Shown here: in pieces, positions 460-19,451 of the stretch
Layout of the letters: each line of letters opens with the position of its first letter
Numbering within the stretch: position 1 is the stretch's first letter
From: an uncultured Oscillospiraceae bacterium
Lineage (GTDB): Bacteria; Bacillota; Clostridia; Oscillospirales; Oscillospiraceae
NCBI GenBank assembly: GCA_947632175.1
Contig: CANROC010000006.1
Span: 62,001-126,000, forward strand
DNA: 64,000 nucleotides
Reading direction: 5' to 3'
Program-made: the position numbers and the translations under genes
Notes under the pieces: model-generated
The model's input: the letters and a program-made list of their open reading frames with translations, nothing else
Told to the model about the DNA's origin: nothing
The model's database searches: none

Positions 460-479
460 ATTTCTTACATAGGCGTCAA

Positions 480-515: not shown

Positions 516-529
516 TTGCGAGAAAACCC

Positions 530-583: not shown

Positions 584-598
584 GAAATGGAGGCGGCT

Positions 599-1027: not shown

Positions 1028-1028
1028 A

Positions 1029-2190: not shown

Positions 2191-2215
2191 GCGTCCGGCG
2201 TAATTTGAGGCAATT

Positions 2216-2249
2216 TGAAAAATGCACGGGCGGGTTCTAAACCCGCCCG
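2216..2249 (-). terminator. Rho-independent terminator of the ECF S-component gene
   Basis: Read on the minus strand, GGGCGGGT...ACCCGCCC (stem 2228-2235 with 2241-2248) is followed by GTGCATTTTTC. It sits 20 bp after the stop of the leftward gene. Confidence 0.75.
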
Positions 2250-2268
2250 TTTAGCGTCTTCCTTTGGG

Positions 2269-2796: not shown

Positions 2797-2809
2797 GGGA
2801 AATTCCTCC

Positions 2810-2837
2810 TTGACTTTTGGGTTGACTTTATTATAAT
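2810..2837 (+). promoter_or_regulatory. sigma-A promoter of the MocR-type gene
   Basis: TTGACT (2810-2815), 16 bp, TATAAT (2832-2837), pointing right toward the gene at 2889. It overlaps the ribosome-binding region of the divergent ECF gene. Confidence 0.65.
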
Positions 2838-2888
2838 GAAATCTGGTCCCAATAAAATAGCCAAAAAAGGAATTTAAAATCATACCAG

Positions 2889-3968: not shown

Positions 3969-3985
3969 AAAGAGGTTCGAGCTAT

Positions 3986-4750
3986 ATGGATGACTGGTTT
4001 ACCGTTGAGAAAATTGACGCTCAGACTTTTGTAATCAGTGAATACAAGCATTGGGAAGAGACACACTGTTATCTCCTTTGCGGGCAAGAAAAGGCGCTTT
4101 TAATCGATACGGGTTTGGGCGTATCAAATATCCGGAAAACCGTTGACAGGCTGACAGAATTGCCTGTTATGGCAGCTACGACCCATATACACTGGGACCA
4201 CATAGGCGGACACCGGTATTTTGATCATATCGCTGTGCATGAGCTGGAGAAAGATTGGCTTGCCGGTAAGTTTCCCATACCTCTGCAGGTTGTCAAAAAT
4301 AATCTAACAAAATATCCCTGCGATTTTCCGGCAGAGTTTGAGCTTGAAGCCTATCGCATTTTTCAAGGTGAGCCGCAAAGAGTGTTGAGCGACGGCGACT
4401 GGCTGGATTTGGGTGATCGCAGGATCCGTGTCGTTCACACGCCGGGACACTCCCCCGGACACTGCTGTTTCTATGAGCCGGATAGAGGGTATCTCTTTTC
4501 CGGAGACTTGATTTACAAAGGCTGTCTCGACGCGTTTTATCCGACCACGGACCCACAGCTCTTCTATGATTCCGTAAAGCGCGTGCGGACATATGAAATC
4601 ACGAGAATTTTACCCGGGCATCATCAGTTAAATATTCCCGTTTCCCTGATAGACGAAGTTGAAAGCGGATTTGCGCAGCTTGAGCGGGACGGAAAGCTCA
4701 AACAGGGGAGCGGGCTGTTCGAGTTTGAGAATTTTCAAATCCATATCTAA
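3986..4750 (+). CDS. metallo-beta-lactamase-fold hydrolase
   Basis: 254 aa. The zinc-binding pattern is complete: THIHWDHIGGH (HxHxDH, about residue 67), TPGHSPGH (about 153), the bridging Asp in FSGDLIY and a final LPGHHQ histidine. The family hydrolyses esters, thioesters or similar substrates. The sequence is closer to generic glyoxalase II-like proteins than to true beta-lactamases, and the substrate is unknown. No signal peptide, so cytoplasmic. Base composition is noticeably more AT-rich than the flanking genes, and it follows a truncated regulator, both consistent with acquisition. Confidence 0.85.
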   Translation: MDDWFTVEKIDAQTFVISEYKHWEETHCYLLCGQEKALLIDTGLGVSNIRKTVDRLTELPVMAATTHIHWDHIGGHRYFDHIAVHELEKDWLAGKFPIPLQVVKNNLTKYPCDFPAEFELEAYRIFQGEPQRVLSDGDWLDLGDRRIRVVHTPGHSPGHCCFYEPDRGYLFSGDLIYKGCLDAFYPTTDPQLFYDSVKRVRTYEITRILPGHHQLNIPVSLIDEVESGFAQLERDGKLKQGSGLFEFENFQIHI

Positions 4751-4751
4751 C

Positions 4752-4790
4752 GCATAGAGCGCACAGCAGAAACGCGTGCGCTCTATATGC
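4752..4790. terminator. hairpin after the MBL gene, shared with 24.66 kb
   Basis: GCATAGAGCGCAC pairs with GTGCGCTCTATATGC directly after the stop. No long T-run follows. A near-identical hairpin stands at 24659-24699. Confidence 0.6.
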
Positions 4791-4813
4791 GCTTATGGGG
4801 CGGCCCGTTCGTG

Positions 4814-5026
4814 TCACTGGAACGACCAGTTTTGGTAGTTGTCCACGAAGGCGCGCATCTCGTCGGCGGAGCGGATGCCGTGGGTCTCCTGGATGAGCTG
4901 GGCACGCTGGGCGTCGCTGAGGGCGGAGAAGCGCTCGTAGGCCGCGAAATTGCGGGCCAGGGAGGCGGTCAGCCCCAGAGGCATCGCGTCGTTGTAAAGA
5001 TCGCCGAGAAATGTGAAGTTTTCCAT
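4814..5026 (-). CDS. small conserved hypothetical protein
   Basis: 70 aa (MENFTFLGDLYND...), probably two or three helices, with an ALSDAQRAQLIQETHGI segment. I do not recognise a named domain. It is last in a leftward cluster after the XRE gene, and GAGGTGAGTG stands just upstream of its ATG. No signal peptide or membrane segment. Confidence 0.65.
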   Translation of the reverse strand: MENFTFLGDLYNDAMPLGLTASLARNFAAYERFSALSDAQRAQLIQETHGIRSADEMRAFVDNYQNWSFQ

Positions 5027-5080
5027 ACACTCACCTCGCCCTTAGTGTTCCCAAAGGGCGGGGCGAATATTTGCGCTGTC

Positions 5081-5287
5081 TTAAAAGAAAAAGAGCTCCT
5101 CGAATTTTTTGTCCAGGGCGATGCACAAGATGAGCGCCAGCTTCGCCGTGGGATTGAACTGTCCCGTCTCGATGGAGCTGATGGTGTTGCGGGATACGCC
5201 CACCATGTCCGCCAGCTGCTGTTGCGAAAGGCCCTGCTCCGCCCGGACCTCTTTCAGGCGGTTTTTTAAGATCAATCTGTCGTCCAT
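5081..5287 (-). CDS. XRE-family small HTH regulator
   Basis: 68 aa, almost entirely one helix-turn-helix domain: LKEVRAEQGLSQQQLADMVG followed by VSRNTISSIETG, ending in the FEELFFF tail typical of the YgzD/HTH_3 single-domain repressors found next to small membrane proteins. It is the third gene in a leftward operon after two DUF6442 genes. It is the probable repressor acting on the duplicated operator upstream of the operon (inference). Confidence 0.9.
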   Translation of the reverse strand: MDDRLILKNRLKEVRAEQGLSQQQLADMVGVSRNTISSIETGQFNPTAKLALILCIALDKKFEELFFF

Positions 5288-5311
5288 GCCGTCTCTCCGT
5301 TCGCTTCCATG

Positions 5312-5632
5312 TCAGATACAAAGAGAGACGATGTATCCCACCGCCGCGATCACCACCGCGAGCGACGCGATGATCGCGATGACAAGCCGCGATTTCTGGG
5401 GGCGCAGCTTATACTCAGCCCAATTTAACGCCGCCGAGCTGACGAAATTGATCGCCAAAAATCCAAAATTCAGCTTGTGCTTGAAAAAAATCTCCGTGAC
5501 AAAGAACGCAAACGACAAAATAAGAACAACCGCCATTCCTTTATGCAGGTATGTTTTTCTGACGTCCGCGCTGTAAGGGTCGCTGTTTTTGAACTCGCTC
5601 TTGCTTTTTTCCAAAATTTCTGTTTTGTCCAT
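5312..5632 (-). CDS. DUF6442-like membrane protein
   Basis: 106 aa. Starts with MDKTEILEKSKSE and is followed by a short charged stretch and about two or three transmembrane segments (GMAVVLILSFAFFVTEIFF; IAIIASLAVVIAAVGYIV). This layout matches the DUF6442 small membrane proteins typically linked to a YgzD-type HTH gene. Function unknown. It is a paralogue of the gene at 5646, 13 bases upstream in the operon. Confidence 0.8.
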   Translation of the reverse strand: MDKTEILEKSKSEFKNSDPYSADVRKTYLHKGMAVVLILSFAFFVTEIFFKHKLNFGFLAINFVSSAALNWAEYKLRPQKSRLVIAIIASLAVVIAAVGYIVSLCI

Positions 5633-5645
5633 AGTTACCCTCCGT

Positions 5646-5975
5646 TCACCCTAAAAAGCTCACAACAAAAATTGCCGTGAAGCACCCGAAGAACACCCAG
5701 AAAAGCGAGGCAAACATGATGTCGAGCCGCGATTTCAGCTTCGCCGCCTTGTAGGTATAGACCGTGGCGATCATGCCAAAATAGATCATCATGTTGTCCG
5801 CCATGTATTTCATCGGCTGATCAAATACGAGCCCGAACACCGCCATGGCGATGCCGCAGATCATGATCCCTACCGCCGCGCCCAGCTGCCACGCCCTGGC
5901 GGTGATCTGCGCCTCGCGCTCGTCGCCGCCGCGGTTTTCTTGTCTGCTTTTTTCCAGTATCTCGTTTTTGTCCAT
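5646..5975 (-). CDS. DUF6442-like membrane protein
   Basis: 109 aa. Begins MDKNEILEKSRQENRGGDERE, then three to four hydrophobic segments (AAVGIMICGIAMAVFGLVF; MMIYFGMIATVYTY; LFWVFFGCFTAIFVVSF). First gene of the leftward operon, with GAGGAGG 7-8 bases before the ATG. Its role is unknown. The tight link with an XRE regulator suggests a regulated small membrane system. Confidence 0.82.
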   Translation of the reverse strand: MDKNEILEKSRQENRGGDEREAQITARAWQLGAAVGIMICGIAMAVFGLVFDQPMKYMADNMMIYFGMIATVYTYKAAKLKSRLDIMFASLFWVFFGCFTAIFVVSFLG

Positions 5976-5995
5976 AGAAAAGCCTCCTCAAAAAT

Positions 5996-6046
5996 GCCAA
6001 GTTTTCTTGTCATCATCATGATAACATCGCCAAGTATACTTGTCAA
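5996..6046 (-). promoter_or_regulatory. promoter with duplicated 15-bp operator
   Basis: On the minus strand: TTGACA (6046-6041), a 17-bp spacer and TATCAT (6023-6018). Two copies of the same site, GCCAAGTATACTTGT (6029-6043, inside the spacer) and GCCAAGTTTTCTTGT (5996-6010, downstream of the -10), lie 33 bp apart on the same face. This is a good candidate operator pair for the XRE protein of the operon. Confidence 0.75.
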
Positions 6047-6097
6047 GAGGAGGCGGGAAAAAATTTCTGGCGCACCGTAATATTTGCGCTTTCAGGC

Positions 6098-6126
6098 TTG
6101 ACTTGACGGCAAAAAAAGTGTATTTT
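6098..6126 (+). promoter_or_regulatory. candidate mgtE promoter
   Basis: TTGACT (6098-6103), 17 bp, TATTTT (6121-6126). This would give a leader of about 180 nt before mgtE. Confidence 0.5.
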
Positions 6127-6184
6127 TTAGAGAGGAAAAAGCCCTTTCGGGAAAACTAATCAAGTGATCAAGTGAGGTGAGACC

Positions 6185-6259
6185 ATGGACGCTGGCAGTA
6201 CAGGCGGCACAGTCGGACGAGAACGTTTGTTCAGGCCCGGCGTCTTCGGCCGCGCCTGA
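6185..6259 (+). CDS. possible 24-aa leader peptide upstream of mgtE
   Basis: An ATG with a GAGGTGAGACC ribosome site opens a 25-codon frame (MDAGSTGGTV then GRERLFRPGVFGRA) ending 55 bases before mgtE. The second half lies over a hairpin (TTCAGGC at about 6230 with GCCTGAA at about 6254). Leader peptides are known to control Mg2+ transporter genes in enteric bacteria (mgtL). Similar control here is only a suggestion. Confidence 0.4.
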   Translation: MDAGSTGGTVGRERLFRPGVFGRA

Positions 6260-6278
6260 AAAGCGAGCTCTGATCGTG

Positions 6279-6311
6279 CCTTGTCGGAATTACTTTTGAA
6301 AGGAGACAAGG
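6279..6311 (+). promoter_or_regulatory. hairpin enclosing the mgtE ribosome-binding site
   Basis: CCTTGTC (6279-6285) pairs with GACAAGG (6305-6311). The loop holds the AAAGGAG ribosome site, 4 bases before the ATG region. It could tie translation to the leader state. I do not recognise the conserved M-box core. Confidence 0.4.
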
Positions 6312-6314
6312 TCA

Positions 6315-7691
6315 ATGGCGGAGAACAGCACCATTTTGGCCTCGACCATCGAGGCCCTCATTGAAAGCAAGAAATATCCCACCTTAAAGGACATCTTCGT
6401 CACCATGCAGCCGGCGGATATCGCCCTGACACTGGGGGAACTGGAGGAGAACCGGCTGCCGCTGATGTTCCGGCTCCTGCCCAAGGAGCTGGCGGCGGAG
6501 ACCTTCATCGAGATGGACCCGGAGGAGCAGGAGCTTCTCATCCGGGGCTTCTCGGACGCGGAGCTCAAGGAGGTCGTGGACGAGCTCTACGTGGACGACG
6601 CGGTGGACCTCATCGAGGAGATGCCGGCCAACGTGGTGCGGCGTATTTTGAAGTCCGCCGACCCGGAGATGCGCCGGACCATCAACGAGCTTTTGAATTA
6701 CCCCGAGGACTCCGCCGGCTCTATCATGACCACGGAGTACGTCTCCCTGCGCCCGGAGATGACCGCCGAGGAGGCCATCAAGCGCATCCGCCGGGGCGCG
6801 GTGGACAAGGAGACCATCTACACCTGCTACGTGACGGACAAAAACCGCAAGCTCATCGGCTACGTGACCCTCAAATCCCTCATCCTGGCGGAGGACGACA
6901 CGCAGATCACCGACATCATGGGCACGGACACCATCTCCGTCACCACCACCGACGACCAGGAGGAGGTGGCGGGCACCTTCCAGAAGTACGACCTCTCGGC
7001 CCTGCCGGTGGTGGACAAGGAGGAGCGCCTGGTGGGCATCGTCACCGTAGACGACGCCATCGACGTCATGGAGGAGGAGGCCACCGAGGACATCGAGAAG
7101 ATGGCCGCCATCACCCCCACGGACAAGCCGTACCTCAAGCTGACGCCCTTTGATATCTGGAAGTCCCGCATCCCGTGGCTATTGCTCCTGATGGTGTCCG
7201 CCACCTTCACGGGCATCATCATCAGCTCCTTTGAAGATGCCCTGGCCGCTTCTGTGGCCCTGACGGCTTTCATCCCCATGCTCATGGACACCGGCGGCAA
7301 CACCGGTTCCCAGGCGTCCGTCACCGTCATCCGCGCGTTGTCCCTGGGGGACCTGGAGTTCCGGGACTTTTTCAAGGTGGTTTGGAAGGAGCTGCGCGTG
7401 GCGGTGCTGTGCGCCGTCTCCCTGGCGGTGGTGAACTTCGGGAAGATCCAGCTGGTGGACGTGTGGATCATGGGGAATACAAGTATCACCGTCACCGTGA
7501 ATCTGGTGGTTTGCGTCACACTGGCGTTCACCGTCATCGTGGCCAAGCTGGTGGGGTGCTCCCTGCCGCTGTTGGCCAAAAAGCTGGGGTTCGACCCCGC
7601 CGTCATGGCCAGCCCGTTCATCACGACCATCGTGGACGCCCTGAGCCTGCTCATCTATTTCCAGGTCGCCAGAGTGCTCTTAGGACTTTGA
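6315..7691 (+). CDS. mgtE: magnesium transporter MgtE
   Basis: 458 aa, full length for MgtE. The N-terminal helical domain (about residues 20-130, LLPKELAAETFIEMDPEEQ) is followed by two CBS domains (about 135-255; VSLRPEMTAEEAIKRIRR, then DLSALPVVDKEERLVGIVTV) and a C-terminal five-helix channel domain with the family signature PMLMDTGGNTGSQAS and FITTIVDALSLLIYF. It forms a dimeric, Mg2+-gated channel in the membrane, closed when the CBS region binds Mg2+. A GAAAGGAG site precedes the ATG. It is monocistronic and lies behind an unusually long leader. Confidence 0.97.
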   Translation: MAENSTILASTIEALIESKKYPTLKDIFVTMQPADIALTLGELEENRLPLMFRLLPKELAAETFIEMDPEEQELLIRGFSDAELKEVVDELYVDDAVDLIEEMPANVVRRILKSADPEMRRTINELLNYPEDSAGSIMTTEYVSLRPEMTAEEAIKRIRRGAVDKETIYTCYVTDKNRKLIGYVTLKSLILAEDDTQITDIMGTDTISVTTTDDQEEVAGTFQKYDLSALPVVDKEERLVGIVTVDDAIDVMEEEATEDIEKMAAITPTDKPYLKLTPFDIWKSRIPWLLLLMVSATFTGIIISSFEDALAASVALTAFIPMLMDTGGNTGSQASVTVIRALSLGDLEFRDFFKVVWKELRVAVLCAVSLAVVNFGKIQLVDVWIMGNTSITVTVNLVVCVTLAFTVIVAKLVGCSLPLLAKKLGFDPAVMASPFITTIVDALSLLIYFQVARVLLGL

Positions 7692-7712
7692 GGAAAAAAT
7701 CGAAAAAACCAC

Positions 7713-7741
7713 TTGACATCATCCGTGCCCTGTGATATTAT
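7713..7741 (+). promoter_or_regulatory. tRNA-Leu promoter
   Basis: TTGACA (7713-7718), 17 bp, TATTAT (7736-7741), 10 bases before the tRNA 5' end. Confidence 0.8.
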
Positions 7742-7751
7742 ACTTGAGCAC

Positions 7752-7839
7752 GCGCGAGTGGTGGAATTGGCAGACTCGCTAGATTCAGGTTCTAGTGTGC
7801 ATTACGCACGTGGGGGTTCAAGTCCCCCCTCGCGCACCA
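7752..7839 (+). tRNA. tRNA-Leu (anticodon CAG)
   Basis: 88 nt. The acceptor GCGCGAG pairs with CTCGCGC, followed by an encoded ACCA. The D arm is typical (GTGGAATTGGCAGAC), the anticodon stem CTAGA/TCTAG carries the loop TTCAGGT with CAG at 34-36, a long variable arm (GTGTGCATTACGCAC) marks a class II tRNA, and the T loop is GTTCAAG. It reads CUG. Confidence 0.97.
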
Positions 7840-7847
7840 TCATCAGT

Positions 7848-7931
7848 GGGGAAGAGGCAGAAGCCAAAGGCTTTTGCCTCTTCCCTTATTTTATAAAAAA
7901 GAACGTCCGTTTTTCGGGCGTTCTTTTTTTG
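7848..7931 (+). terminator. two tandem terminators after the tRNA
   Basis: A long stem GGGGAAGAGGCAG...GCCTCTTCCC (7848-7885) is followed by TTATTTTAT. A second hairpin GAACGTCCG...CGGGCGTTC (7901-7923) is followed by seven Ts. Together they insulate the tRNA from what follows. Confidence 0.85.
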
Positions 7932-8092
7932 TGTCAGCAGATAAAAACCCGCCGGCACAGAGGGGTGTGACGGCGGGTGCGGGGAAATAGGGGTTGAGGA
8001 CAGGTTATACTATATCATGAGTTTCACGATTTGTCAACAAGAATTGTTAAAAAAAGTATTTTTATATTGAAAAAAGTCCGGATATGAAAAAT
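7932..8092. other. AT-rich spacer without a gene
   Basis: Between the tRNA terminators and the left inverted repeat. I see no coding frame or strong promoter. A leftward transcript from the promoter at 8147-8175 would run through it. Confidence 0.5.
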
Positions 8093-8118
8093 CTGTCGCA
8101 GAACTTCCCCTTCTGAGA
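8093..8118 (+). repeat. left 26-bp inverted repeat (IRL) of the invertible cassette
   Basis: Bases 8093-8118 (CTGTCGCAGAAC...TTCTGAGA) are the exact reverse complement of 9550-9575, 26 of 26 positions. They lie outside the recombinase gene and its upstream region. Confidence 0.95.
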
Positions 8119-8146
8119 CAGACCCATTCGCACCTTTTACTTTTGT

Positions 8147-8175
8147 ATTGTAACTCATTGTCAATAAATTTTCAA
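8147..8175 (-). promoter_or_regulatory. outward-facing promoter inside the cassette
   Basis: On the minus strand TTGAAA (8175-8170), 17 bp, TACAAT (8152-8147). In this orientation it points left, away from the SLH genes, toward the tRNA terminators and with no gene to serve. After inversion it would drive 9911 with a leader of about 385 nt. Confidence 0.65.
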
Positions 8176-8333
8176 CCCCTTGAAGCACGATTTTTTAAAT
8201 TTTTTATCAACAGCCAATTGGCGGGCTTTAAAATATCAGATGACGTGAGGCCGGATGTCCCCGGCCATGAAAAATGAGCCGTCAAATGAGCCGTCGTGGC
8301 GGCTTGTTTGACAATTTCAACGGAGGTAACAGT

Positions 8334-9443
8334 ATGTCAAAAAGAGGAGAGAATATTTTCAAACGCAAGGACGGGCGCTGGGAGGCAAGATACATCAAAT
8401 GCCGCGAGACGTCCGGGAAGATCAAGTTCGGCTACTGCTACGGCAAGACCTACCGGGAGGCCAGGGAAAAGGCGGCGCGGTGCAAGGCCGCCCTGGTCAA
8501 CGGGAGCCCGCAGCCGGGTTACAGCCAGCGCCGGTTTTCCTTTTTCTGTGAGGCATGGCTGCGGGACCAGAAACAGCGGGTGAAGGAGTCCTCCTACGTC
8601 AAGTACAGCTCCGTTTTGGCGCTCCACATCCTCCCGAAGCTGGGCGCCTGCCCGCCGCTGAAGCTCAATACCGGTCTCGTGGACCGGTTCCGCCAGGAGC
8701 TCATGGACGAGGGCCTGTCGGCGGCCACGGTGCGGGACACGCTGGTGGTCCTGCGGTCGGTCCTGAAGTTCACGGCGGCCTCGTTTCCGGGGGCCTTCCC
8801 GGCCCTGGAGATCCGGTATCCCAAAGAGCCAAAAAAGGAGGCGCGTGTGCTCTCCGTAGAGGAACAGCGCCGGTTTATGGCGTGTTTGCGGGAGAATATG
8901 GACGAGTGTAAGCTGGGGATCCTGCTGGCGCTTTTGACGGGCCTGCGGGTCGGAGAAATCTGCGCTCTGCGGTGGGAGCACATCTGTCTGAAGGACAAGC
9001 TCCTGCGTGTGGAGGGGACCATGCAGCGCCTCCAGAATACAGAAGGCGGAGAGGCCGGAAAGACAAAGGTGGTCATCGGCTGTCCCAAGAGCGAATCCTC
9101 CCGGAGGACAATCCCGCTTCCGGACAGCGTCGCGGCCCTGTGCGCGCAGCTTGACCCGGGGGACCCGGAGGCGTTCATCCTCACGGGGACGCGGGCGTAT
9201 ATGGAGCCGCGCAAGCTCCAGCGGCGGCTCAAGAAGCTGACGGAGGAGTGCGGCCTGGAGGGGGTCCATTTCCATACGCTCCGGCACAGCTTTGCCACCA
9301 GATGCATGGAGGTGGGCTTCGAGATCAAGAGCCTTTCGGAGATACTGGGCCATGCCAGTACCTCCATCACCCTGGACCGCTATGTCCATGCCTCCATGGA
9401 GGTCAAGCGCGATCAGATGAACCGTTTGGCGGCGGCGGTCTGA
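8334..9443 (+). CDS. tyrosine recombinase (site-specific invertase/integrase)
   Basis: 369 aa from the ATG at 8334, chosen for CGGAGG 8-9 bases upstream; the frame is open further up without a ribosome site. The N-terminal part is an AP2-like arm-binding domain (NIFKRKDGRWEARY), followed by a SAM-like core-binding domain (about 65-160) and a catalytic domain with Arg in LTGLRVGEICALRW (about 205), HTLRHS (about 315), the LGHAS histidine and the nucleophile Tyr in DRYVH (about 350). It is the only gene between two perfect 26-bp inverted repeats, so inversion of its own segment is a more likely role than phage integration. Its own promoter is not clear. Confidence 0.92.
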   Translation: MSKRGENIFKRKDGRWEARYIKCRETSGKIKFGYCYGKTYREAREKAARCKAALVNGSPQPGYSQRRFSFFCEAWLRDQKQRVKESSYVKYSSVLALHILPKLGACPPLKLNTGLVDRFRQELMDEGLSAATVRDTLVVLRSVLKFTAASFPGAFPALEIRYPKEPKKEARVLSVEEQRRFMACLRENMDECKLGILLALLTGLRVGEICALRWEHICLKDKLLRVEGTMQRLQNTEGGEAGKTKVVIGCPKSESSRRTIPLPDSVAALCAQLDPGDPEAFILTGTRAYMEPRKLQRRLKKLTEECGLEGVHFHTLRHSFATRCMEVGFEIKSLSEILGHASTSITLDRYVHASMEVKRDQMNRLAAAV

Positions 9444-9549
9444 ACGGTTGAGCCGTCAATTTTTGCAGTCAACATAAAAGAACCAAAGCGGCGAAAATCA
9501 GAAATCCGCCCGTCCCGCAAGGCAAAACCGCCCTCCGCCCGGCCGCTTT

Positions 9550-9575
9550 TCTCAGAAGGGGAAGTTCTGCGACAG
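9550..9575 (-). repeat. right 26-bp inverted repeat (IRR) of the invertible cassette
   Basis: Exact reverse complement of 8093-8118. It lies 106 bases after the recombinase stop and 335 bases before the first SLH gene. Confidence 0.95.
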
Positions 9576-9910
9576 GTGCGGGGGCGGATGGCGGTCCGCA
9601 TGGCGGCGCGGATGCGCGGCTGGCGCGGACTGCGGGATCGCCCTTACGGAACGCGTTTCCTCCCGCCGCTTCGCGCGTGGGGAACGGTAGGAGGGGGCGC
9701 TTTCTTGCTCTTCTTCAGAGGGCGCCTTTTCACCTCACAATGATCGATCCGGCGGACAAACGGGTCCCGCGACATTTCGGCAGATGGAACGGGGTACCGT
9801 CCGCGGGGTCGGTCCAGTGAAGGCGAACGCGCGGAACGTGAGCCGGAACTGAGGTGGACCCATTGCACTGAAAATCGCAAAAACTTTTATTATCTGAAAG
9901 GAGCCATATT
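9576..9910 (+). other. GC-rich leader region of the SLH operon
   Basis: 335 bp with no credible gene. It has many short inverted repeats and a weak terminator-like stem (GGGCGC at about 9696 with GGCGCC at about 9720, then TTTT). AAAGGAG stands before the ATG at 9911. A weak TTGCAC / TTTATT pair near 9864-9892 is too close to the ribosome site to be a convincing promoter, so the fixed region seems to lack a strong promoter of its own. Confidence 0.5.
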
Positions 9911-11866
9911 ATGAGGAAAAAAGTACTTACCCTGATCATGGCGCTGGCGATGCTTCTTAGTCTCGTCCCCACTGCCCTGGCGGCCGATTTCAAGGACCAG
10001 GACGAGGTGGAGGATTGGGCTGAGCATGCCGTTGACCGCTGGAGCGGAGTCGGCGTCATCAAAGGCGACGAAAACGGCAACTTCAACCCCACCGGCGATC
10101 TGACCCGCGCGGAGGCCGCGCAGGTCCTCGTGAACCTTTTGAAGCTGGAGGGCACTGCCGACCTGTCCGGTTTCGCTGACTACGCCACGGCCGTTAAGGA
10201 CCATTGGGCTGTTCCCGTGCTGGAGGCCGTTGTGGCCGCCGGCATCATGAACGGCACCGATAAGGGCCTGGAGCCGGAATCCACGGTCACCCGCGAGCAG
10301 ATGCTCACCATGATCTGCCGCGGCCTGCACCTGGAGCCCGCCCCCAAGGACGCCGAGACCGACATCCCCGACATTGATGACGCCGCCGAGTGGAGCCGCG
10401 GCTACATTATCGCGCTCAACAAGATGGGCGTCGTCAACGGCGTGGACAATGAGGGCTCCGCCGCTCCTCTGACCGACATCAGCCGCGACGCGGCCGTCAC
10501 CGTTCTTGACCGTCTCATCGGCGGCTACGCCAGCGAGGACGGCCAGTCGGTCGAGATCGAGGAAGGTAAGATCACCCTGATCGTGGCCGACAACGTGAAG
10601 GTCGAGGGCACTGCCGATCCCGAGCTTCCCATCGTTGTGGCCGGCACGGCCAACACCGTTGACATGGAGAAGGTCGAGGGCGCTCCCGCCGTCCAGGTCA
10701 CCGTCTCCGAGGTCAAGATCGAGAACGCCCCCGTGGGCACCACCGTTGCCGCTGCCGAGGGCGCCACCGACGTCACCGTCGGCGACCAGACCGTCGAGCC
10801 CGGCGAGCCCCCCGTCGTCGTCAAAGAAGAGAAAGAGCCCGAACCCACCACCCCCGGTGGCCAGGTGCCTCCGGCACCGACCGACAACGTCAAGGACACT
10901 GATATTGACGCGATAATCGATGATGGACGCAACGCTGTCAACAATAAGATGAAGGGGGACGATGGCATTCCCTATGCCGTTATCCCTGAGTTTGAGGGGA
11001 CCGGCACTCGCCAGGTCAAGGTCATCGTCTACGACAGCACCGCCACAATCGGTGCCATTAAAGAGGATATCATCGACACACTGGTCAATGCGCTCAAGGA
11101 AAATGCCAGCGAGGTGAGCACTATCACCGCCGTCAAGGATATCAACGGAACAGATGTCGCTGAGGAGACCAATGGGCTGTACAAGAAGACCCTTACTCTT
11201 GGCAGCAGCATTACCGAAAATGATGTCATCCTGTTCGTCAAGGCTCTCGTGGGTCAGAATTACAGCATAGGTACAAACATCAGCGGACTTATTGGCAAGA
11301 ACGGCTTCACCGTTGAGGTTGACGACGTTGAAACCGGCAGCATTGACACCAAGGTCCAGTACCAGGTCTCTTTCGAGATGGCGAGCCTGGACGACGTTAT
11401 CGCGGATGAAATCCCCAACATCAGCAAGAAGATGACGGACAAGGCGTATGCGTCCTGCACATGGGACGGCACTGCACACACCCTGAACGTCACCATCACT
11501 AATGGTGAAACTCCGGTTGGAACAGTATACAATGACATTGGCACCGCTCTTTGCGACGCGTTCAACCTGGTCCGCAAGCAGCTGAGCGAGGTCAAAGATG
11601 CAGTTAACACTGAAAAAAGTAGCACGCTTGAGATTGGTAGTCCTATCAGCGGGACAAATTTGATTGCCTTTATCAAGGGCCTGAGCCTCAAGAAAACCGC
11701 TGATTCCACCACAACGACCCTGCTCGCGCTTATGCAGACTGGCCGTGCTTCCGTAATCAATGGTCTTAAGGGTTACGAGTTCCAGATCAGCGTTACCGCC
11801 CAGAGTAGTCTTCCCGAAGGTGCCAGCAGCGGCACACAGACCTACACCATTAAGTTCGCTGAGTGA
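9911..11866 (+). CDS. SLH-domain surface (S-layer-like) protein
   Basis: 651 aa. A Sec signal peptide (MRKKVLTLIMALAMLLSLVP...ALAA, cleavage near residue 25) is followed by three SLH repeats (about 28-90, 90-150, 155-215; GDENGNFNPTGDLTRAEAAQ is typical), which bind pyruvylated wall polymers. Next come a beta-rich stretch, a Pro/Glu linker (about 295-325) and two divergent copies of a domain of about 150 aa (DIDAIIDDGRNAVNNK... and LDDVIADEIPNISKK...). No enzymatic motif is seen. It is probably an abundant envelope protein, cotranscribed with the giant SLH protein downstream. Its only plausible strong promoter is the invertible one. Confidence 0.92.
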   Translation: MRKKVLTLIMALAMLLSLVPTALAADFKDQDEVEDWAEHAVDRWSGVGVIKGDENGNFNPTGDLTRAEAAQVLVNLLKLEGTADLSGFADYATAVKDHWAVPVLEAVVAAGIMNGTDKGLEPESTVTREQMLTMICRGLHLEPAPKDAETDIPDIDDAAEWSRGYIIALNKMGVVNGVDNEGSAAPLTDISRDAAVTVLDRLIGGYASEDGQSVEIEEGKITLIVADNVKVEGTADPELPIVVAGTANTVDMEKVEGAPAVQVTVSEVKIENAPVGTTVAAAEGATDVTVGDQTVEPGEPPVVVKEEKEPEPTTPGGQVPPAPTDNVKDTDIDAIIDDGRNAVNNKMKGDDGIPYAVIPEFEGTGTRQVKVIVYDSTATIGAIKEDIIDTLVNALKENASEVSTITAVKDINGTDVAEETNGLYKKTLTLGSSITENDVILFVKALVGQNYSIGTNISGLIGKNGFTVEVDDVETGSIDTKVQYQVSFEMASLDDVIADEIPNISKKMTDKAYASCTWDGTAHTLNVTITNGETPVGTVYNDIGTALCDAFNLVRKQLSEVKDAVNTEKSSTLEIGSPISGTNLIAFIKGLSLKKTADSTTTTLLALMQTGRASVINGLKGYEFQISVTAQSSLPEGASSGTQTYTIKFAE

Positions 11867-11907
11867 ACCTTATAATCTTTACGTCATAATACCTACGTCC
11901 GGGGGGC

Positions 11908-11935
11908 GGGGCCTTTCGGCCTTGCCCCCCGGTCA
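11908..11935 (+). promoter_or_regulatory. intercistronic hairpin
   Basis: GGGGGGCGGGGCC ... GGCCTTGCCCCCC forms a very stable stem between the two SLH genes. It lacks a T-run, so it may act as a partial terminator or an mRNA-stabilising or processing structure that sets different levels for the two proteins. Confidence 0.5.
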
Positions 11936-11954
11936 ACGCATATAGGAGGAACTC

Positions 11955-14900
11955 ATGAAACTGCATTGTAAAAGAGCGACTGCGGTTTTACTGGCGCTGG
12001 TGATGATGCTGGCGCTTGTACCCGCGACAGTGTTTGCGGCGGCGGTTGAACCCGGACCAGACAACCTGGACGGGCTGTTTACGGAGCTGCCGGAGGGGTG
12101 GAGTTTTACCTCTCGGGTGGGTAGTATCGGCTACGATACTGGGAAGGAAGGTGGAGAATGGAAGAAATCTGATTTCACACACAACGGAAACACGGTATAT
12201 GAGAGCATCTCAGAATTACCTGAGACGCCGAACCAGGCATCTGCATCCTGGCTCACACCATCCGATACAAGTAAAGAGTATTACGTTTCTTTTGAATATG
12301 CCTTTCTTAAGGGCGCAGACAGCGCGGCTGAATTCAGCTTCGGACAAAGTTACAGCTATAGATTGACCTCCCTGTCTAACACGGGGACACCTCTGGAGGG
12401 TATTTCTGACCCGACAGAGTTGGAGAGCGTTACATGGCAGACAGCCAATATTACTGTGCCTGCTACTCGCGGAATCGGGTTGCTCCACAAGCTGAATGGT
12501 GCCGCCGGAGGCTCGGAAAAGGTCTATGTTTCCAATTTCAAGGTCTATGATGAAGTACCGCAGGAATGGAAGGCCACCGTCCAAGTGACGGTGACCACGG
12601 ACCATCTCGACCTGTCAGGTTTCACATATGTGAGCGGCGGTAACGGCAACATACAAATCAAAGAGGAAACCCAATGCCCAATCACCCTTGAAACCACTTT
12701 AGACAAGACGGTGACAGTGGGGCAAGTAAAGCTCAAAGAAAACGTAGAATTCATAAAATGGGAGACGGATATTCCCGAGGGCGAGTGGACCGCCACGGAC
12801 AGCAGTGGTTTTTCCTGGAAAGTGAGCAAAGGGGGTACATACTCCATCACCCTGCATACTGTAAAACACGCACCGGCCGCCCTGCCCGGCAATATCCAAC
12901 TGCTCAAACAAGAGGGTGACGCATGGAATCCCGTTCAAATCAAGGGCAGTGGAAATCAGACTGTTACCACGCTTCCAACTGACGCGTTCTCAAATTATTG
13001 GTGGTATGACTGGTCTTACGGAACCGTTGACGGCCAGAAACTGCGGTTGCAGTATTCAGGGACCGCCGAGAACACCGAGGTAAGACTGTACGATGACGAA
13101 AATCCTGTTGAGGTTCAGAGCGTAGAGGACGGGTCCTTCTACTATGAGATCGCCCCCAACGACACCGAGCACCTGTTGAAGATGGTCGTGACCTCGTCGG
13201 AGGAAGGCTCTGTACCATCTACAGTAACAGTTTTCTTGTGGCCGACCATGACCTGGGATGAGGCGTTTGGCACGGACACGGACGGCGTGAAGAAGATCAA
13301 TAACCTGGACAACGACTATTTGTCTTCGACCTGGATGGACGGCTCCACGGTCAAAACGCGCAACTGGAAGCCGGATGTGGTAAGCCGGGGCGCGGATGCG
13401 GAGTGGAACAGTCATGCTGAGTGCATGACTTTTGACTTCAACCCGACGCCCCCCACGATCACCATCGACGGGGACGACTACGACATCAAAGACGAAAACC
13501 ATCAAATAGTATTTACCTCTGCGGCGCTGGAGGGCGGCGCCGGCTTTGTAAGCCGTGAGATCACTTTCACCGCAAAAACTCCGGGAACCCTTATGTACGA
13601 CTTCCTGGTGTACACACCCGAAGACAAGAGAATACAGATTTCCAATTATTATAAAATGGGTTCCGATTCTGAAAAGCGTGACGATCTGTTGCCAGACGAA
13701 CCCAACTCAGACGTTACGAGGCAGAACATCGCTTGGACCACCCACAGCTTTACTATAGAAGAGGCCGGAGAAACATATCGAATCGCCGTCACCGACCCGG
13801 ACAATGGCGGCGGCTTTATGGCCATCTCCAATCTGAAATTCCTCTCCGAGAAGAAGAATATCACCTTCCATAAAGACGGCGAGGGAGACGGCACCATTAC
13901 AGGCGCGCAGGACGGCGACTTTTATGTCGGTCAAAACCTTGAACTAACCGCCACACCCAACGACACGTCAGTATTCTTGGGGTGGTATGATGGAGATAAC
14001 AATCTTCTTACCCTCTCTACAATTTACTCATTCCAAATTGAAAGCAGTACCCCCACAACAATCAAGGCAAAGTTTGGTCCAAAAGCCAGTAATGTGGCGC
14101 AGATCGGGACGACTCTTTATTCTTCGCTGGACGAGGCGCTGAAAACCGCAGAGACCAATCCCGGGCCCGAGGACAAAACAGTCAAGGTCGTCGCCAAGGA
14201 CCTGAGGATCACTGAGGACACGACCATCCCGGCGGGGGTCACGGTCGTTCTGCCCTGCTCCGCCAGTGACATGGGCTATCTGGTGGGTGACGGAATTAAT
14301 CACTCCCCCGACGGCACGGTGCTGAACCCTGCCACCGGCGCGAAGCCCACGACCTACTGCACCCTGACCGTGGCGGACGGTAAGACGCTCACGATTCAGG
14401 GCACCCTGCTGGTCAACGCCGAGGTGGGCCGTCCCGGCGGCGGCCACTACGACCAGGACGTGAACGGCGGCTGCGCCGTGGTGCAGCTCTCACCGAATAG
14501 CAAGATCGTCGTGGAAAGCGGCGGCCTGCTGGACGTGTTCGGCTATGTCCGCGGCACCGGCACCGTTACCGTCAAGACCGGCGGCACAGCCTCGGACCTT
14601 TACGTAGTCCGCAACTGGCGCGGAGGCTCCCAGGCGTTCGCCATATACCCCATTGTCTACCCCATGAACCAGGAGGACATGCACAACATTGAGGTAGAAA
14701 CTGTCATTGAAAGCGGCGGCAGGCTTGAGGGCAGCGTGAGAATGTATGCCGGCGGCTATTTCAATTACACAAGGTTCCCGCAGATCGACGGGACGAACGG
14801 GCTGATCCGCGGCGGCAAGGTCACCAAGACGCTGGTGCCCAAGGATCAGACGGAGAAGAAGGTCGATGACCGAGAGAAGATCGTGCTGGAAGGGAACGGC

Positions 14901-17900
14901 AGCATTTCTTACAGCGCTCTTATGATCGTCGGCCTGGAGATGAGCACCGGCGACTTCCTGTTCCCCATTGACGGCGACATGGATTTTGAGGTCAACGGCA
15001 CGTGGAATATCACAGATCAACTCAAGTTCATGCCCGGCGCCATCGTCACGCTGAAAGACGGCGCCAAAGTGACGATTGCCGCCGAGACACAGAGAAGTCA
15101 GGACAAGCACGCCCAGAAGCCCGCCGAGCAGATCAAGGGCAACAACGTCGTTTTCTATGACACAACCTTCCAGGACAATATGTCTGTTTCCGTCAAGGAT
15201 ACAAATTATCCCACAACTCAGCGTGGCGACGCGAAGCTGGTGATGGAGGGCGGTACGACGCTTACGGCGAACGGCGCATTTGCGGGCAAGATCGAGATCG
15301 CCGAAAGTGCCACAGAGGAGCATCCCGCGACCGTGACCTTCAACGGCGGCGTCTCCGTGACCTCACCGGAGGCCAATGACTACTGCAAGTTGATAGACGG
15401 GTCTACAAACCCGACCCCAAGAAGAGAACTCACCTTCAAAGCCACCATTGACGGCTATGAAGTGCAGTCCGGCAAGACCTACACCTGCTGGAAAGAGGGC
15501 GAAACCACCGTCATCAAGGTTGCTGAGGACGGCAATGCGACCAATTCCGTTGACTACAACGGCGCTGCCCAGAAGTGGGCGGATGATGGTGCCAGCTATG
15601 AGTACAAGTCCGCGGCCGAGGGCGGCACGTGGACCGGCGAGGCCAAGAATGCCGGCACCTACTCCGTCCGCAAGGTCACGCAGGGCACCGGCTACAAGCT
15701 CGTCGAGGTGCTCGGCACGCTGACAATCGAGCCCGTTGTTGCCGAGTTTGAACTTGATGGGACGAGCACCTTCCCCTACGACGGGCTGGCGCACACGGTC
15801 ACGGCGAAAGTCACCAACAAGATTAGCGATGACGATGTCACCGTGACCCTGTCCGGCTACACCGGAACCGATGCGCAGACCTACACCGCCACCGTCACCA
15901 GTCTCGGCGGCGAGGCGGCAAAGAACTACACCATCGGGGACAATAAGACGCTTTCCTGGGAAATCACCAAGGCGCAGCTGACCCTCACATGGGACACAAG
16001 GACAACTTTCACCTATGATAAGCAAACGCATACCGTCAGCGCTACGCTTTCCGGTCAGCAGAACGACGAGGATGTCACCGTCACGCTCTCCGAGAACACT
16101 TATACGGACGCCGGAACTTATCAGGCGAAAGCGACGATCAACTACGGCGACGGCACTAAGGCCAGCAACTACACGGAACCGGCCAACCTCACCCAAGAGT
16201 GGAGCATCACTCAGGCCGAAGCGCCGACGTTCGACTTCCCGACGGTGACGCAGGAAGTCACCTATAAGCCCGACGGGAAGCTTGAGGACGTAGAGCTGTC
16301 CTTCACGTCCAACGAATACGGAACATTCGCGTGGACGGACGGCAACATTAAGCCCACCGTGACGCAGAAGACGTACAGCGTGACTTTCACGCCGAGCGCG
16401 GAGACCATTCAGAATTACAAGGACATTCCAACCAAGACCCAGATGGTCACTATCGACGTCCAGAAGGGCGAGCAGGCCGCGCCGGAGGGCGTCGCGGCAC
16501 ATGATGAGCAAACCATTCCCGGAAATGACGGTTACATCACCGGCGTGGATGAGACGATGGAGTGGAAAAAGGCCGATGCTGGCGATAACGCATGGCAGGC
16601 CGTGACAGGAACGCAAATCAACAATTTAGCGGCGGGCAGCTACAACGTTCGGTACAAGGCCAACGACAACCAGAACGCCGGCACGCCGACTAAGGTGACT
16701 GTCAACAAATATAACCCCACAGCGGAGGCACAGCCCACAGCGAGCATCGACTATAAGGCCGAAGAGCTCACCGGGCTCGCGGCTGGCGATTACAAAATCA
16801 ATGGCACGACGGATGTCACCGTAGACGAAACCGGAAAAATCAAGATCCATGAGGATTGGATCGGCCAGACCATTTCCATCGTCAAGAAGGGCGACGGCAC
16901 GCACACCGTAGACAGCAACGCTCTGATGCTGGACATCCCCGCCCGTCCTGACGCGCCCACCGACCTTAAGGGCGGCTATACCTCCAAGCCCGATGCCGCC
17001 GACGGCAAAGTGACGGGCCTTGACGGTACCGCGGCCTATGAGTACAGCACTGACGGCACCGCGTGGAATAAGCTCACCGGCGAGACCAAGCTGGCGAAAG
17101 GGACCTATCAGGTGCGCCTTGCCGCCACTGACAAAGATTTCCACAGCGAGACCGCACAGGTCGAGGTGAAGGACCCCACGGTGGAGGTGGTCCCGGAGAT
17201 TTCCATTGACTATGGAGCAGAGAAGCTGACCGGGTTTGAGTCCGGAACCTACACTGTCAACGGCACACAAATCACCGTGACGGATAATAAGGCCGACATC
17301 AACCCCGATTGGTTTGGAACCACTGTAAAAATCGTCAAGAAGGGAACCTATCCCACAAGCATCGACAGCGCGGAGAAGAAGCTTGCGATTCCCGCCCGTC
17401 CCGCCGCGCCAAGTGTTACCATGGAGCGCATCAGCGAGGCCGGACAGTCCGACGGTGGCATCACCGTCACGAATCCCGCGCAGGGCATGACCTACGAGTA
17501 CCGCAAGGGAACCGACGGCCAGTGGACGGACATGGTGAATGCGGCGGCCGACGGCCTTTCCGAGGACACCTATTACGTCCGCGTGAAGGCCGGAGCGGAT
17601 CACTTCGCCGGGAACACCGCCGAGGTTAAAGTCACCCACAAGGGGTCGCAGGAGGCGCCTGAGCTCACCGTCACCTCGCCCGAAGCTATCGGCCAGACGG
17701 GGTCCGTCAAAGGACTGACCACCGCCATGGAGTGGAGCGAGGAACAGAACGGCACTTATACCCAGTTTACCGAGGGAAAGATCGCGGAGCTTGAAGCGAT
17801 CGAGGGCGATTTGCACCTCTGGGTCCGCATGGCGGAGACGGAGACGCTGGCACACAGCGAGGCGGTGGAGATCACCGTCACGGCGTTCGTCCCCACGGTC

Positions 17901-19451
17901 ATGGAGACGCCCACGGATATCGCCATCGACTACGCCAAGGAGCAGTTGACCGGCCTCACCGAGGGCAGCTACAGGATTACCGTGGACGGCGAGGACACCA
18001 CCGTGACCGTGACGGGGACCGTGTTCGATATTCAGGACGGCTGGTTCGGCAAGGAGATCAAAATCGTCAAGGCCGGCGACCAGATCGTCAGCGTGGACGG
18101 GGAGACTGTCACGGTGACCGTTCCCGCCCGGCCCGACGCGCCGGAGGGGCTTGAGGGGAAGACGCCCACCTCCAGCGTGGGGACCGACGGGTCCATCACG
18201 GGGCTCGACGGCGAGACGGCTTACGAGTACAAGGCGGCTGACGGCGAGTGGCAGGATGTGGAAGCCGGCAAGGAGACTATCGAGGGCCTTGCCGTGGGGT
18301 TCTATGACGTCCGGATCAAGGCCACGGAGGAGGCTTTCGCCAGCGAGAGCGTGCGCGTGGAAGTCAAAGAGTACGTCGCGCCTCCGATCCCCGTCATTCC
18401 CCCTGACACCACCGAGACCGTCACCAACCCCGACGGCTCTACCACCACGACGACCACCGAGGCCGACGGGACCAAGACCGAGACGACGACCCAGACCGAC
18501 GGGACCGTCACCGAGAAAGTCACCGAGCCCGACGGCTCCGCCGTTGAGACGACCACCACTCCCGAGGGCGTCACCGGCCAGGTGACCACCGACGCCCAGG
18601 GCGAGATCACGTCCGCCGAGGTGGTGATCCCCGAGGCGAGGGACGACGAGGTCGTCACCGCGCCCGTGGAGGTCCCCGCCGCCAAGAGCGCCGAGGAGGC
18701 CCCGGAAATCAGCGTCAAGACAGGCTCCGAGGACACCACGAAGGTGGAGATCCCCGTCACCGAGGTCGGCCCCGGCACCGTCGCCGTGGTCGTCCACGAG
18801 GACGGCACGGAGGAGGTCGTCCGCGACTGCGTCATCAGTGAGAACGGCGTCGTGCTCAACGTTGAGGGCGACGTGACGCTGAAGATCGTGGACAACACCC
18901 AGACCTTCAAGGATGTGGAGCCCGTGGACCACTGGGCCACGGATGAGGTGGAGTTCGTCGCCGCGCGTGAGCTCTTCAACGGCAAGGAGGAGAACATGTT
19001 CGACCCCGACGGCGACATGACCCGCGGGATGCTGGTCACGGTCCTGCACCGGCTGGCCTATGAGCCCGACGCCGTGAAGACCAGCTTCGGCGATGTGAAC
19101 GCCAACGAGTATTACGCGGAGGCCGTGTCCTGGGCCGCCGGACTCGGCGTCGTCAACGGCAAGGGGGAGAACTCCTTCGCGCCGGAGGAGGACATCACCC
19201 GCGAGGACCTGGCGGTGATCCTGTACCGCTACGCCGAGAAGATGGGCTATGATCTGACGCAAAACGGCACGTACAGCAGCTTTGCGGACGCCGGTGACAT
19301 CAGCGGCTACGCCCGCGAGGCCATGGATTGGGCCGTGAGCGTGGGCCTCATCGCCGGCAAGGAGAACGGACGCCTCGCGCCTCAGGAGAACGCCACCCGC
19401 GCCCAGGTCGCCGCGATCTTCATGCGGTTTTGTAAAAATGTGATCAAGTAA
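11955..19451 (+). CDS. giant modular SLH surface protein
   Basis: 2498 aa, with AGGAGGAACTC before the ATG. A signal peptide (LLALVMMLALVPATVFA, cleavage near 28) leads into several beta-sandwich-like regions, an InlB B/Listeria-Bacteroides-type repeat (about 633-700; TFHKDGEGDGTI, GQNLELTATPND), a beta-helix-like region (about 760-1130), MBG-like modules (about 1195-1500; KNAGTYSV), and roughly four units of 130-160 aa each that contain [Y/T]EY...G.W and IDY..E.LTG motifs (about 1508-2150). A Thr-rich linker with DG repeats (about 2151-2215) and three C-terminal SLH repeats (about 2317-2498) close it. A probable adhesin or S-layer-linked fibre anchored to wall polymer. It is second in the operon. 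Confidence 0.92.
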   Translation: MKLHCKRATAVLLALVMMLALVPATVFAAAVEPGPDNLDGLFTELPEGWSFTSRVGSIGYDTGKEGGEWKKSDFTHNGNTVYESISELPETPNQASASWLTPSDTSKEYYVSFEYAFLKGADSAAEFSFGQSYSYRLTSLSNTGTPLEGISDPTELESVTWQTANITVPATRGIGLLHKLNGAAGGSEKVYVSNFKVYDEVPQEWKATVQVTVTTDHLDLSGFTYVSGGNGNIQIKEETQCPITLETTLDKTVTVGQVKLKENVEFIKWETDIPEGEWTATDSSGFSWKVSKGGTYSITLHTVKHAPAALPGNIQLLKQEGDAWNPVQIKGSGNQTVTTLPTDAFSNYWWYDWSYGTVDGQKLRLQYSGTAENTEVRLYDDENPVEVQSVEDGSFYYEIAPNDTEHLLKMVVTSSEEGSVPSTVTVFLWPTMTWDEAFGTDTDGVKKINNLDNDYLSSTWMDGSTVKTRNWKPDVVSRGADAEWNSHAECMTFDFNPTPPTITIDGDDYDIKDENHQIVFTSAALEGGAGFVSREITFTAKTPGTLMYDFLVYTPEDKRIQISNYYKMGSDSEKRDDLLPDEPNSDVTRQNIAWTTHSFTIEEAGETYRIAVTDPDNGGGFMAISNLKFLSEKKNITFHKDGEGDGTITGAQDGDFYVGQNLELTATPNDTSVFLGWYDGDNNLLTLSTIYSFQIESSTPTTIKAKFGPKASNVAQIGTTLYSSLDEALKTAETNPGPEDKTVKVVAKDLRITEDTTIPAGVTVVLPCSASDMGYLVGDGINHSPDGTVLNPATGAKPTTYCTLTVADGKTLTIQGTLLVNAEVGRPGGGHYDQDVNGGCAVVQLSPNSKIVVESGGLLDVFGYVRGTGTVTVKTGGTASDLYVVRNWRGGSQAFAIYPIVYPMNQEDMHNIEVETVIESGGRLEGSVRMYAGGYFNYTRFPQIDGTNGLIRGGKVTKTLVPKDQTEKKVDDREKIVLEGNGSISYSALMIVGLEMSTGDFLFPIDGDMDFEVNGTWNITDQLKFMPGAIVTLKDGAKVTIAAETQRSQDKHAQKPAEQIKGNNVVFYDTTFQDNMSVSVKDTNYPTTQRGDAKLVMEGGTTLTANGAFAGKIEIAESATEEHPATVTFNGGVSVTSPEANDYCKLIDGSTNPTPRRELTFKATIDGYEVQSGKTYTCWKEGETTVIKVAEDGNATNSVDYNGAAQKWADDGASYEYKSAAEGGTWTGEAKNAGTYSVRKVTQGTGYKLVEVLGTLTIEPVVAEFELDGTSTFPYDGLAHTVTAKVTNKISDDDVTVTLSGYTGTDAQTYTATVTSLGGEAAKNYTIGDNKTLSWEITKAQLTLTWDTRTTFTYDKQTHTVSATLSGQQNDEDVTVTLSENTYTDAGTYQAKATINYGDGTKASNYTEPANLTQEWSITQAEAPTFDFPTVTQEVTYKPDGKLEDVELSFTSNEYGTFAWTDGNIKPTVTQKTYSVTFTPSAETIQNYKDIPTKTQMVTIDVQKGEQAAPEGVAAHDEQTIPGNDGYITGVDETMEWKKADAGDNAWQAVTGTQINNLAAGSYNVRYKANDNQNAGTPTKVTVNKYNPTAEAQPTASIDYKAEELTGLAAGDYKINGTTDVTVDETGKIKIHEDWIGQTISIVKKGDGTHTVDSNALMLDIPARPDAPTDLKGGYTSKPDAADGKVTGLDGTAAYEYSTDGTAWNKLTGETKLAKGTYQVRLAATDKDFHSETAQVEVKDPTVEVVPEISIDYGAEKLTGFESGTYTVNGTQITVTDNKADINPDWFGTTVKIVKKGTYPTSIDSAEKKLAIPARPAAPSVTMERISEAGQSDGGITVTNPAQGMTYEYRKGTDGQWTDMVNAAADGLSEDTYYVRVKAGADHFAGNTAEVKVTHKGSQEAPELTVTSPEAIGQTGSVKGLTTAMEWSEEQNGTYTQFTEGKIAELEAIEGDLHLWVRMAETETLAHSEAVEITVTAFVPTVMETPTDIAIDYAKEQLTGLTEGSYRITVDGEDTTVTVTGTVFDIQDGWFGKEIKIVKAGDQIVSVDGETVTVTVPARPDAPEGLEGKTPTSSVGTDGSITGLDGETAYEYKAADGEWQDVEAGKETIEGLAVGFYDVRIKATEEAFASESVRVEVKEYVAPPIPVIPPDTTETVTNPDGSTTTTTTEADGTKTETTTQTDGTVTEKVTEPDGSAVETTTTPEGVTGQVTTDAQGEITSAEVVIPEARDDEVVTAPVEVPAAKSAEEAPEISVKTGSEDTTKVEIPVTEVGPGTVAVVVHEDGTEEVVRDCVISENGVVLNVEGDVTLKIVDNTQTFKDVEPVDHWATDEVEFVAARELFNGKEENMFDPDGDMTRGMLVTVLHRLAYEPDAVKTSFGDVNANEYYAEAVSWAAGLGVVNGKGENSFAPEEDITREDLAVILYRYAEKMGYDLTQNGTYSSFADAGDISGYAREAMDWAVSVGLIAGKENGRLAPQENATRAQVAAIFMRFCKNVIK

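Follow-up and report, generated by a model that had tools for sequence, protein, structure and literature searches.

A putative self-inverting promoter cassette, built around an integrase-type tyrosine recombinase, upstream of SLH surface genes in an uncultured Oscillospiraceae bacterium

Salmonella Hin represents a compact plan for phase variation, in which a recombinase gene and an outward promoter lie together within an invertible segment bounded by inverted sites of ∼26 bp, and inversion moves the promoter to or from genes for a surface structure. FimB and FimE are encoded outside their invertible DNA, and those segments are small. Integrases with two DNA-binding domains, such as those of lambda and Tn916, have core sites that enclose paired direct repeats. 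At the pneumococcal cod (hsdS) locus, psrA likely lies inside the stretch that is inverted. Passages of two papers on the pneumococcal system place the recombinase within the inverted locus (PMC7096588, PMC11868660). According to sections of another paper, recombinases are encoded near the switch and occasionally within it, Hin being given as an example, and Clostridioides difficile RecV is encoded outside its invertible DNA (PMC5903667). For gut Clostridia, excerpts of PMC11892184 link invertons to tyrosine recombinases, with one example in Intestinimonas; as described there, recombinases were counted if they intersected the inverton or lay within 5 kb, and hence these data may include self-containing cases. 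We found no account of a self-inverting promoter cassette of the integrase type in the literature searched, which consisted mostly of papers readable without a subscription.

We analyzed a 64,000-nt stretch of DNA (the window) from an uncultured Oscillospiraceae bacterium. One segment of it, 8093–9575 (1,483 bp), is enclosed by inverted repeats (8093–8118 and 9550–9575) that are 26 nt long and 100% complementary; across the range searched (7000–10800), the runner-up inverted repeat with separate arms is 20 nt at 80%. An earlier note on this DNA had described a recombinase gene between identical 26-bp inverted repeats. This is confirmed, the enclosed gene being that of a tyrosine recombinase, which by itself fills the 1.48-kb segment. 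The features of the locus are as follows.

6315..7691, MgtE-type transporter gene, left of the cassette
7752..7839, tRNA-Leu, left of the cassette
7947..8037, minus strand, candidate small RNA outside the cassette (promoter plus terminator-like hairpin; kept in the closest relative, G015)
8093..8118, plus strand, left recombination site, a 26-bp inverted repeat arm (repeat search and family site patterns)
8096..8118, make-up of the left site: outer arm TCGCAGAA, 7-nt spacer CTTCCCC, inner arm TTCTGAGA
8175..8147, minus strand, outward promoter TTGAAA-17-TACAAT (promoter scan, 10/12 positions)
8276..8296, plus strand, left candidate arm-type pair, direct repeats 12 nt apart (GCCGTC at 8278 and 8290; the second has GTCG for GTCA)
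8334..9443, plus strand, tyrosine recombinase (integrase) of 369 aa, presumed to invert its own segment (ORF list, domain and profile matches)
9450..9472, plus strand, right candidate arm-type pair, directly past the stop codon (GCCGTC at 9452, CAGTCAA at 9466)
9550..9575, minus strand, right recombination site, a perfect inverted copy of the left (repeat search and family site patterns)
9576..9910, plus strand, fixed leader of the SLH operon, 335 nt (promoterless in the scan, structured RNA, conserved in G015 from 9605)
9911..11866, plus strand, SLH-domain surface protein, 651 aa, predicted first target
11955..19451, plus strand, SLH-domain surface protein, 2498 aa, predicted second target

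The two SLH genes presumably form one operon, judging from their spacing. Left of the MgtE gene, the minus strand encodes two adjacent DUF6442 proteins (5312–5975), with a small HTH regulator alongside (5081–5287).

We consider it highly probable that 8093–9575 is a self-inverting switch, in which an integrase-type recombinase flips the segment, itself and the promoter included, and the promoter drives the SLH operon once inverted. The recombinase would act by cutting and rejoining DNA at two core sites in inverted orientation, each with 8-bp arms and a 7-nt spacer; the arm-type pairs that flank its gene probably assist. Strand exchange across the spacer would then invert the whole segment along with the recombinase gene. 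In the orientation seen in the window, the promoter would fire leftward into the candidate small-RNA and terminator region; from this geometry, the window is predicted to represent the OFF state. After inversion (position x becoming 17668 minus x), the promoter would sit at 9493–9521 on the plus strand, facing the SLH gene, and would read through the leader into the operon, the predicted ON state.

The recombinase ORF opens at 8274, and its likely start is the ATG at 8334, preceded by GGAGGT. The protein matches PF00589 (Phage_integrase; E = 4.5e-25) and PF14659 (SAM-like; E = 1.5e-9), and residues R205, H314, R317, H340 and Y350 are invariant across 13 relatives. From general knowledge of the recombinase family, we take these residues to have catalytic roles. 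When a profile of 13 family members was used as the query, the best solved structure was the Tn1549 integrase (6en0; E = 1.7e-23, positions 80–368 aligned), and a single-sequence search with the window recombinase gave the archaeal XerC-like protein 4a8e as the top structure. In the predicted model (mean pLDDT 80, pTM 0.54), the N-terminus consists of strands 8–10, 16–24 and 30–37 followed by a helix at 40–56, with moderate confidence. The arm-binding domain of Tn916 integrase has its elements in this order; in the sequence itself, the match to such a domain is weak (E = 0.013, below the cut-off). Judged by sequence, the tyrosine recombinase of the window belongs to the integrase type and has what look like arm-type sites; we presume that it does the flipping itself.

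Membership in the Hin family was rejected, given the PF00589 domain with its invariant R, H, R, H and Y and no serine catalytic type. The comparison with Hin made in the earlier note applies to the shared plan, with one amendment: Hin is a serine recombinase, whereas the locus here has a tyrosine recombinase, sites with a 7-nt spacer and apparent arm-type sites, which makes Hin a functional analogue rather than a relative. With FimB/FimE and RecV, the locus shares a tyrosine recombinase, short inverted repeats and putatively invertible DNA before surface genes, but here the recombinase lies inside that DNA, together with candidate arm sites. Pneumococcal PsrA/CreX is likewise a tyrosine recombinase encoded in the locus it inverts, although it shuffles hsdS coding sequence, whereas the element moved here would be a promoter. 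The Tn916 and Tn1549 integrases are comparable in the profile match and possibly in the predicted three-strand-plus-helix N-terminus and the candidate paired arm-type repeats; the segment here, however, has room for one gene and moves no conjugative element, and because its two sites are inverted, the reaction would give inversion rather than excision and transfer. Inverton group 139 and invertase group 35 of gut Clostridia also tie invertons to nearby tyrosine recombinases, but the two examples quoted from them in the excerpts of PMC11892184 are segments of ∼255 nt.

The paired repeats had been missed in the earlier note. They lie at both ends of the recombinase gene and recur across the family. 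Before the aligned start, at a distance of 39–83 nt, 22 of 31 elements have a direct-repeat pair of the form GTCA-8 nt-GTCA/G, for which shuffles predict 0.09. Past the aligned end, ≤60 nt away, 23 of 30 have a pair of the form GTCA-8 or 9 nt-GTCA, against an expected 0.05. These repeats resemble arm-type sites and would bind the N-terminus of the recombinase.

The 31 loci of this set, the window included, are what remains of 33 tblastn places (identity ≥35%, E ≤1e-20) after removal of the duplicates L056 and L058. The 33 places comprised the window, 20 hand-picked regions from the top of the homologue list and 12 of 13 loci from a second search; other homologues, mostly of ≤43% identity (e.g. 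in G044, G063, G036 and G009), were left out. A site pair was detected by pattern in 22 of the 31 loci, with a TCGCAGA-like outer arm, a 7-nt spacer and an inner arm, the arms being ∼8 bp. In 21 of the 22 elements both sites carry the same spacer, with L062 one base off; across elements, the left spacers come in 21 different forms, and only 3 of 462 between-element comparisons gave a match. Sameness within and difference between elements would follow from a requirement of strand exchange for matching spacers in the two sites of an element. This test is biased toward similarity, because the best-matching candidate pair was taken for each element (23-nt score) and the 9 of 31 elements without a pair were dropped. 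Within an element, the two outer arms agree in 21 cases of 22 and the two inner arms in 11 of 22. Among the nine dropped elements, L045, L052 and L066 have inverted arms by a looser search, L044 runs off its contig, and neither search gave a site pair in L049, L053, L061, L065 or L067. Of these five, L049 is truncated, its match stopping at residue 318 of 369. Extra tandem sites, spaced 31–45 nt apart, occur in L037, L038, L044, L048, L060 and L063, which suggests site duplication or a change in copy number.

In its own genome (G000), the cassette is single-copy, and the window 26-mer (≤3 mismatches) is found at the two cassette ends and nowhere else; among 149 genomes searched, it is present in G000 and G015. 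The assembly contains one orientation, and relatives with lost sites exist, which is how things would look if the segment inverted formerly and is now locked in this strain. We think this improbable, as the 26-bp sites are still perfect copies of one another and the reading frame and conserved catalytic residues are intact.

Breaks in the assemblies provide indirect signs of switching in populations. Contig ends were counted for 27 of the 31 loci, the least similar (L052–L055) being left out. Six of these 27 contigs stop <500 nt from the recombinase gene, compared to 1.06 expected. Four of the six (L038, L048, L060 and L063) stop 2–54 nt outside a site; little can be read from the other two, L057 ending ∼200 nt beyond a site and L044 inside the gene. 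In G129, the end of a second contig consists of exactly the 23 nt common to both cassette ends. The G129 ends fit a sample of mixed orientations, but could also reflect the repeat itself or variation in tandem copies. On the switch reading, both orientations would coexist within one population.

The earlier note had called for a search of relatives for orientation variation, and such variation is found. The closest recombinase homologue (88% protein identity) is in G015, a genome of the same genus; its contig is the public record CANPYK010000024.1, from an uncultured Oscillospiraceae MAG. The G015 locus (L036) aligns with the window in the forward direction over 7938–8118 (77%) and 9605–10827 (75%), and the cassette between them, 8093–9576, is reversed (85%), with break points at the repeats. 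Hence, the promoter end of the cassette touches the SLH gene in G015. A reading in which the left-flank difference from G015 breaks synteny was rejected, because the nearest 181 nt (7938–8118) align.

Beyond these 181 nt, G015 (L036, 817–9680) has a stretch that by eye resembles the 3' end of tRNA-Leu, next to a polyvalent-protein gene (2,920-aa ORF; ART-PolyVal and LPD3 domains). The arrangement looks like integration of a mobile element in the tRNA gene beside the switch; ARAGORN found no tRNA on L036.

A second pair in opposite orientation is formed by G012 and G002, whose cassettes are 97.4% identical. Their SLH-side flanks share 95.8% identity across 6.5 kb, yet are joined to opposite cassette ends. 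The other flank of G002 was assembled separately, as contig C93; this contig passes through the site into the D end of the cassette and overlaps the G002 cassette contig by 77 nt, the two having been left unjoined in the assembly. In a looser case, homologous surface-gene flanks are on the promoter side in L062 and on the other side in L039, L042 and L045; L046 and L057 have an inverted stretch in common, at different distances. The flank-sharing groups L039/L042/L045, L040/L043 and L060/L062 are each of one orientation. For a related cassette of Enterococcus raffinosus, no flip was seen, the four records that carry the locus all having one orientation; a fifth record gave a flank match only. 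Both orientations of one segment, the observation by which an inverton is recognized, are seen between genomes at orthologous loci, those of the window and G015 and of G012 and G002.

These comparisons bear on the idea that the cassette is the remnant of an integrated mobile element, a prophage or conjugative transposon, with an integrase that sits between repeats by chance and has no role in switching. The Tn1549 match of the family profile would fit such an origin, as would the matches of the window protein to phage integrase families and the tRNA gene that the cassette adjoins. Integration, however, creates direct rather than inverted flanking repeats, and the outer site arms are kept at unrelated genomic places; on these two grounds we rejected the idea, which we regard as very improbable indeed. 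Also against it, orientation varies precisely at the repeats, viral contigs yielded only two relatives, at 26% identity, and none of seven neighbouring window proteins matches a mobile-element family in Pfam (six match something and 20594–22162 nothing). A self-inverting switch remains our preferred reading.

The promoter that the earlier note had placed inside the left end, pointing out, is present, and the fixed region before the SLH genes, said there to have no strong promoter, indeed has none within the scan of 7850–9950: no sigma-70-like site was found on the plus strand past 8234, and hence none in the leader. We examined the family for an outward –35 with a 17-nt spacer located 76–83 nt from the outer edge of the left site, for which 25 elements were testable. 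A clear promoter was seen in 17 of the 25 (score ≥9, with ≤3 of 200 dinucleotide shuffles as good in each case), beginning 77–82 nt from the edge, and a weaker one (score 8; 10–12 of 200 shuffles equal) in L037, L038, L057 and L065. L048, L050, L051 and L055 have no convincing promoter at 76–83 nt; a looser scan gave other outward candidates in these four. Six of the 31 loci lack a left site by pattern, among them L066, where an outward TTGCAA-16-TATAAT can be seen by eye. As judged from these sequences, the position of the outward promoter is conserved across the family.

According to the earlier note, the promoter in its present orientation points toward nothing but tRNA terminators. This is incomplete, since a stronger minus-strand promoter and a hairpin are also there. 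The promoter (TTGACA-17-TATAGT, 8037..8009) lies a short way outside the left repeat, and the candidate small RNA (∼60 nt) would end at a stable terminator-like hairpin (7978–7947; z –5.2) followed by a T-run. Across 7000–12000, the tRNA alone attained an Rfam gathering score. Could the inversion be real and its effect different? The cassette promoter might mainly serve the left side, extending the candidate small RNA (8037–7947), and the SLH genes might have an unrecognized promoter of their own or be controlled through the leader. The strength of that minus-strand promoter, its hairpin just left of the cassette and their retention in G015 argue for this, as does the highly structured leader. 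Yet the plus strand of 9576–9910 has no sigma-70-like promoter, and the neighbour that recurs in the family is a large secreted gene (18 of 31 loci), whereas the small-RNA stretch was found in just 2 of 99 genomes searched, G000 and G015. We accordingly see a mainly left-side effect as unlikely, and favour the inverted promoter as the one that would drive the SLH genes. The leader is structured beyond shuffles (z –3.4), and hence a second layer of control is possible. When sought in relatives, the leader gave nothing more than short matches beyond G015. A stretch of ∼60 nt in it resembles short stretches elsewhere in G012 and G022, one of which precedes another secreted-protein gene.

We looked within 1.1 kb of the cassette for genes that point away from it, encode ≥500 aa and have a signal-like N-terminus. 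Such a gene is present in 18 of the 31 loci, and the other 13 show none. It is on the promoter side in 4 loci (L036 by homology, L038, L062 and L065), on the other side in 13 and on both in 1. The count relies on a crude signal-peptide rule, which L057, from the cultured Pseudoflavonifractor sp. 524-17, passes though its gene encodes a transporter, and which L036, counted via its SLH domain, failed because its ORF is extended upstream. A Pfam search of 12 such proteins or neighbours gave SLH in L036 and L038, FctA and DUF7601 in L040, DUF11 in L039 and L062, SpaA in L066, an ABC-2 transporter in L057, and no match for five. In L066 (region 1–8344), the cassette lies between two divergent paralogues with 42% identity over 526 aa, which are at nearly equal distances from it (314 and 310 nt) and have a start context in common; inversion would swap which is read. 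L066 is possibly an either/or switch between surface genes.

Distant relatives that share the layout occur in Enterococcus. We examined 9 of 206 matching plasmid records, with identities of 33–39%. Inverted repeats of 18–29 bp surround the gene in six of the nine, namely L081 (Vescimonas fastidiosa) and L083, L085, L086, L087 and L088 (Enterococcus); the repeat is weak in E. gilvus L084 and poor in the Ruminococcus albus plasmid L082. In L089, the integrase frame breaks early relative to near-identical relatives, and the right side falls outside the repeat test. By eye, L081 and all seven Enterococcus loci have a GTCA pair upstream, and five of the seven have one downstream. L083, L084, L087 and L088 are on Enterococcus megaplasmids. 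Neighbours in Enterococcus include the accessory Sec genes SecA2/SecY2 (L083) and a WxL surface gene cluster (L084).

We are somewhat inclined toward a broader view, in which domestication of integrases of the conjugative-transposon type, in gut Clostridia as well as Enterococcus, has produced a distinct class of self-inverting promoter cassettes. Through the arm sites at the two ends of its gene, the enzyme would sense its own level and orient the reaction. The same cassette would stand before giant surface proteins that are unrelated to one another (SLH, pilin-like, WxL, accessory Sec loci), with some loci toggling two paralogues instead of ON and OFF. Gene-filled cassettes of ∼1.5 kb could escape searches tuned to short intergenic invertons. 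The many natural pairs of site and enzyme, with their differing 7-nt spacers, make spacer homology, the use of arm sites and autoregulation directly testable. If this view is right, the plan of Hin, in which a single flipping segment combines enzyme and promoter, has an independent origin around a tyrosine recombinase of the integrase type, and a portable module has spread through gut Bacillota, phase-varying very large surface proteins.
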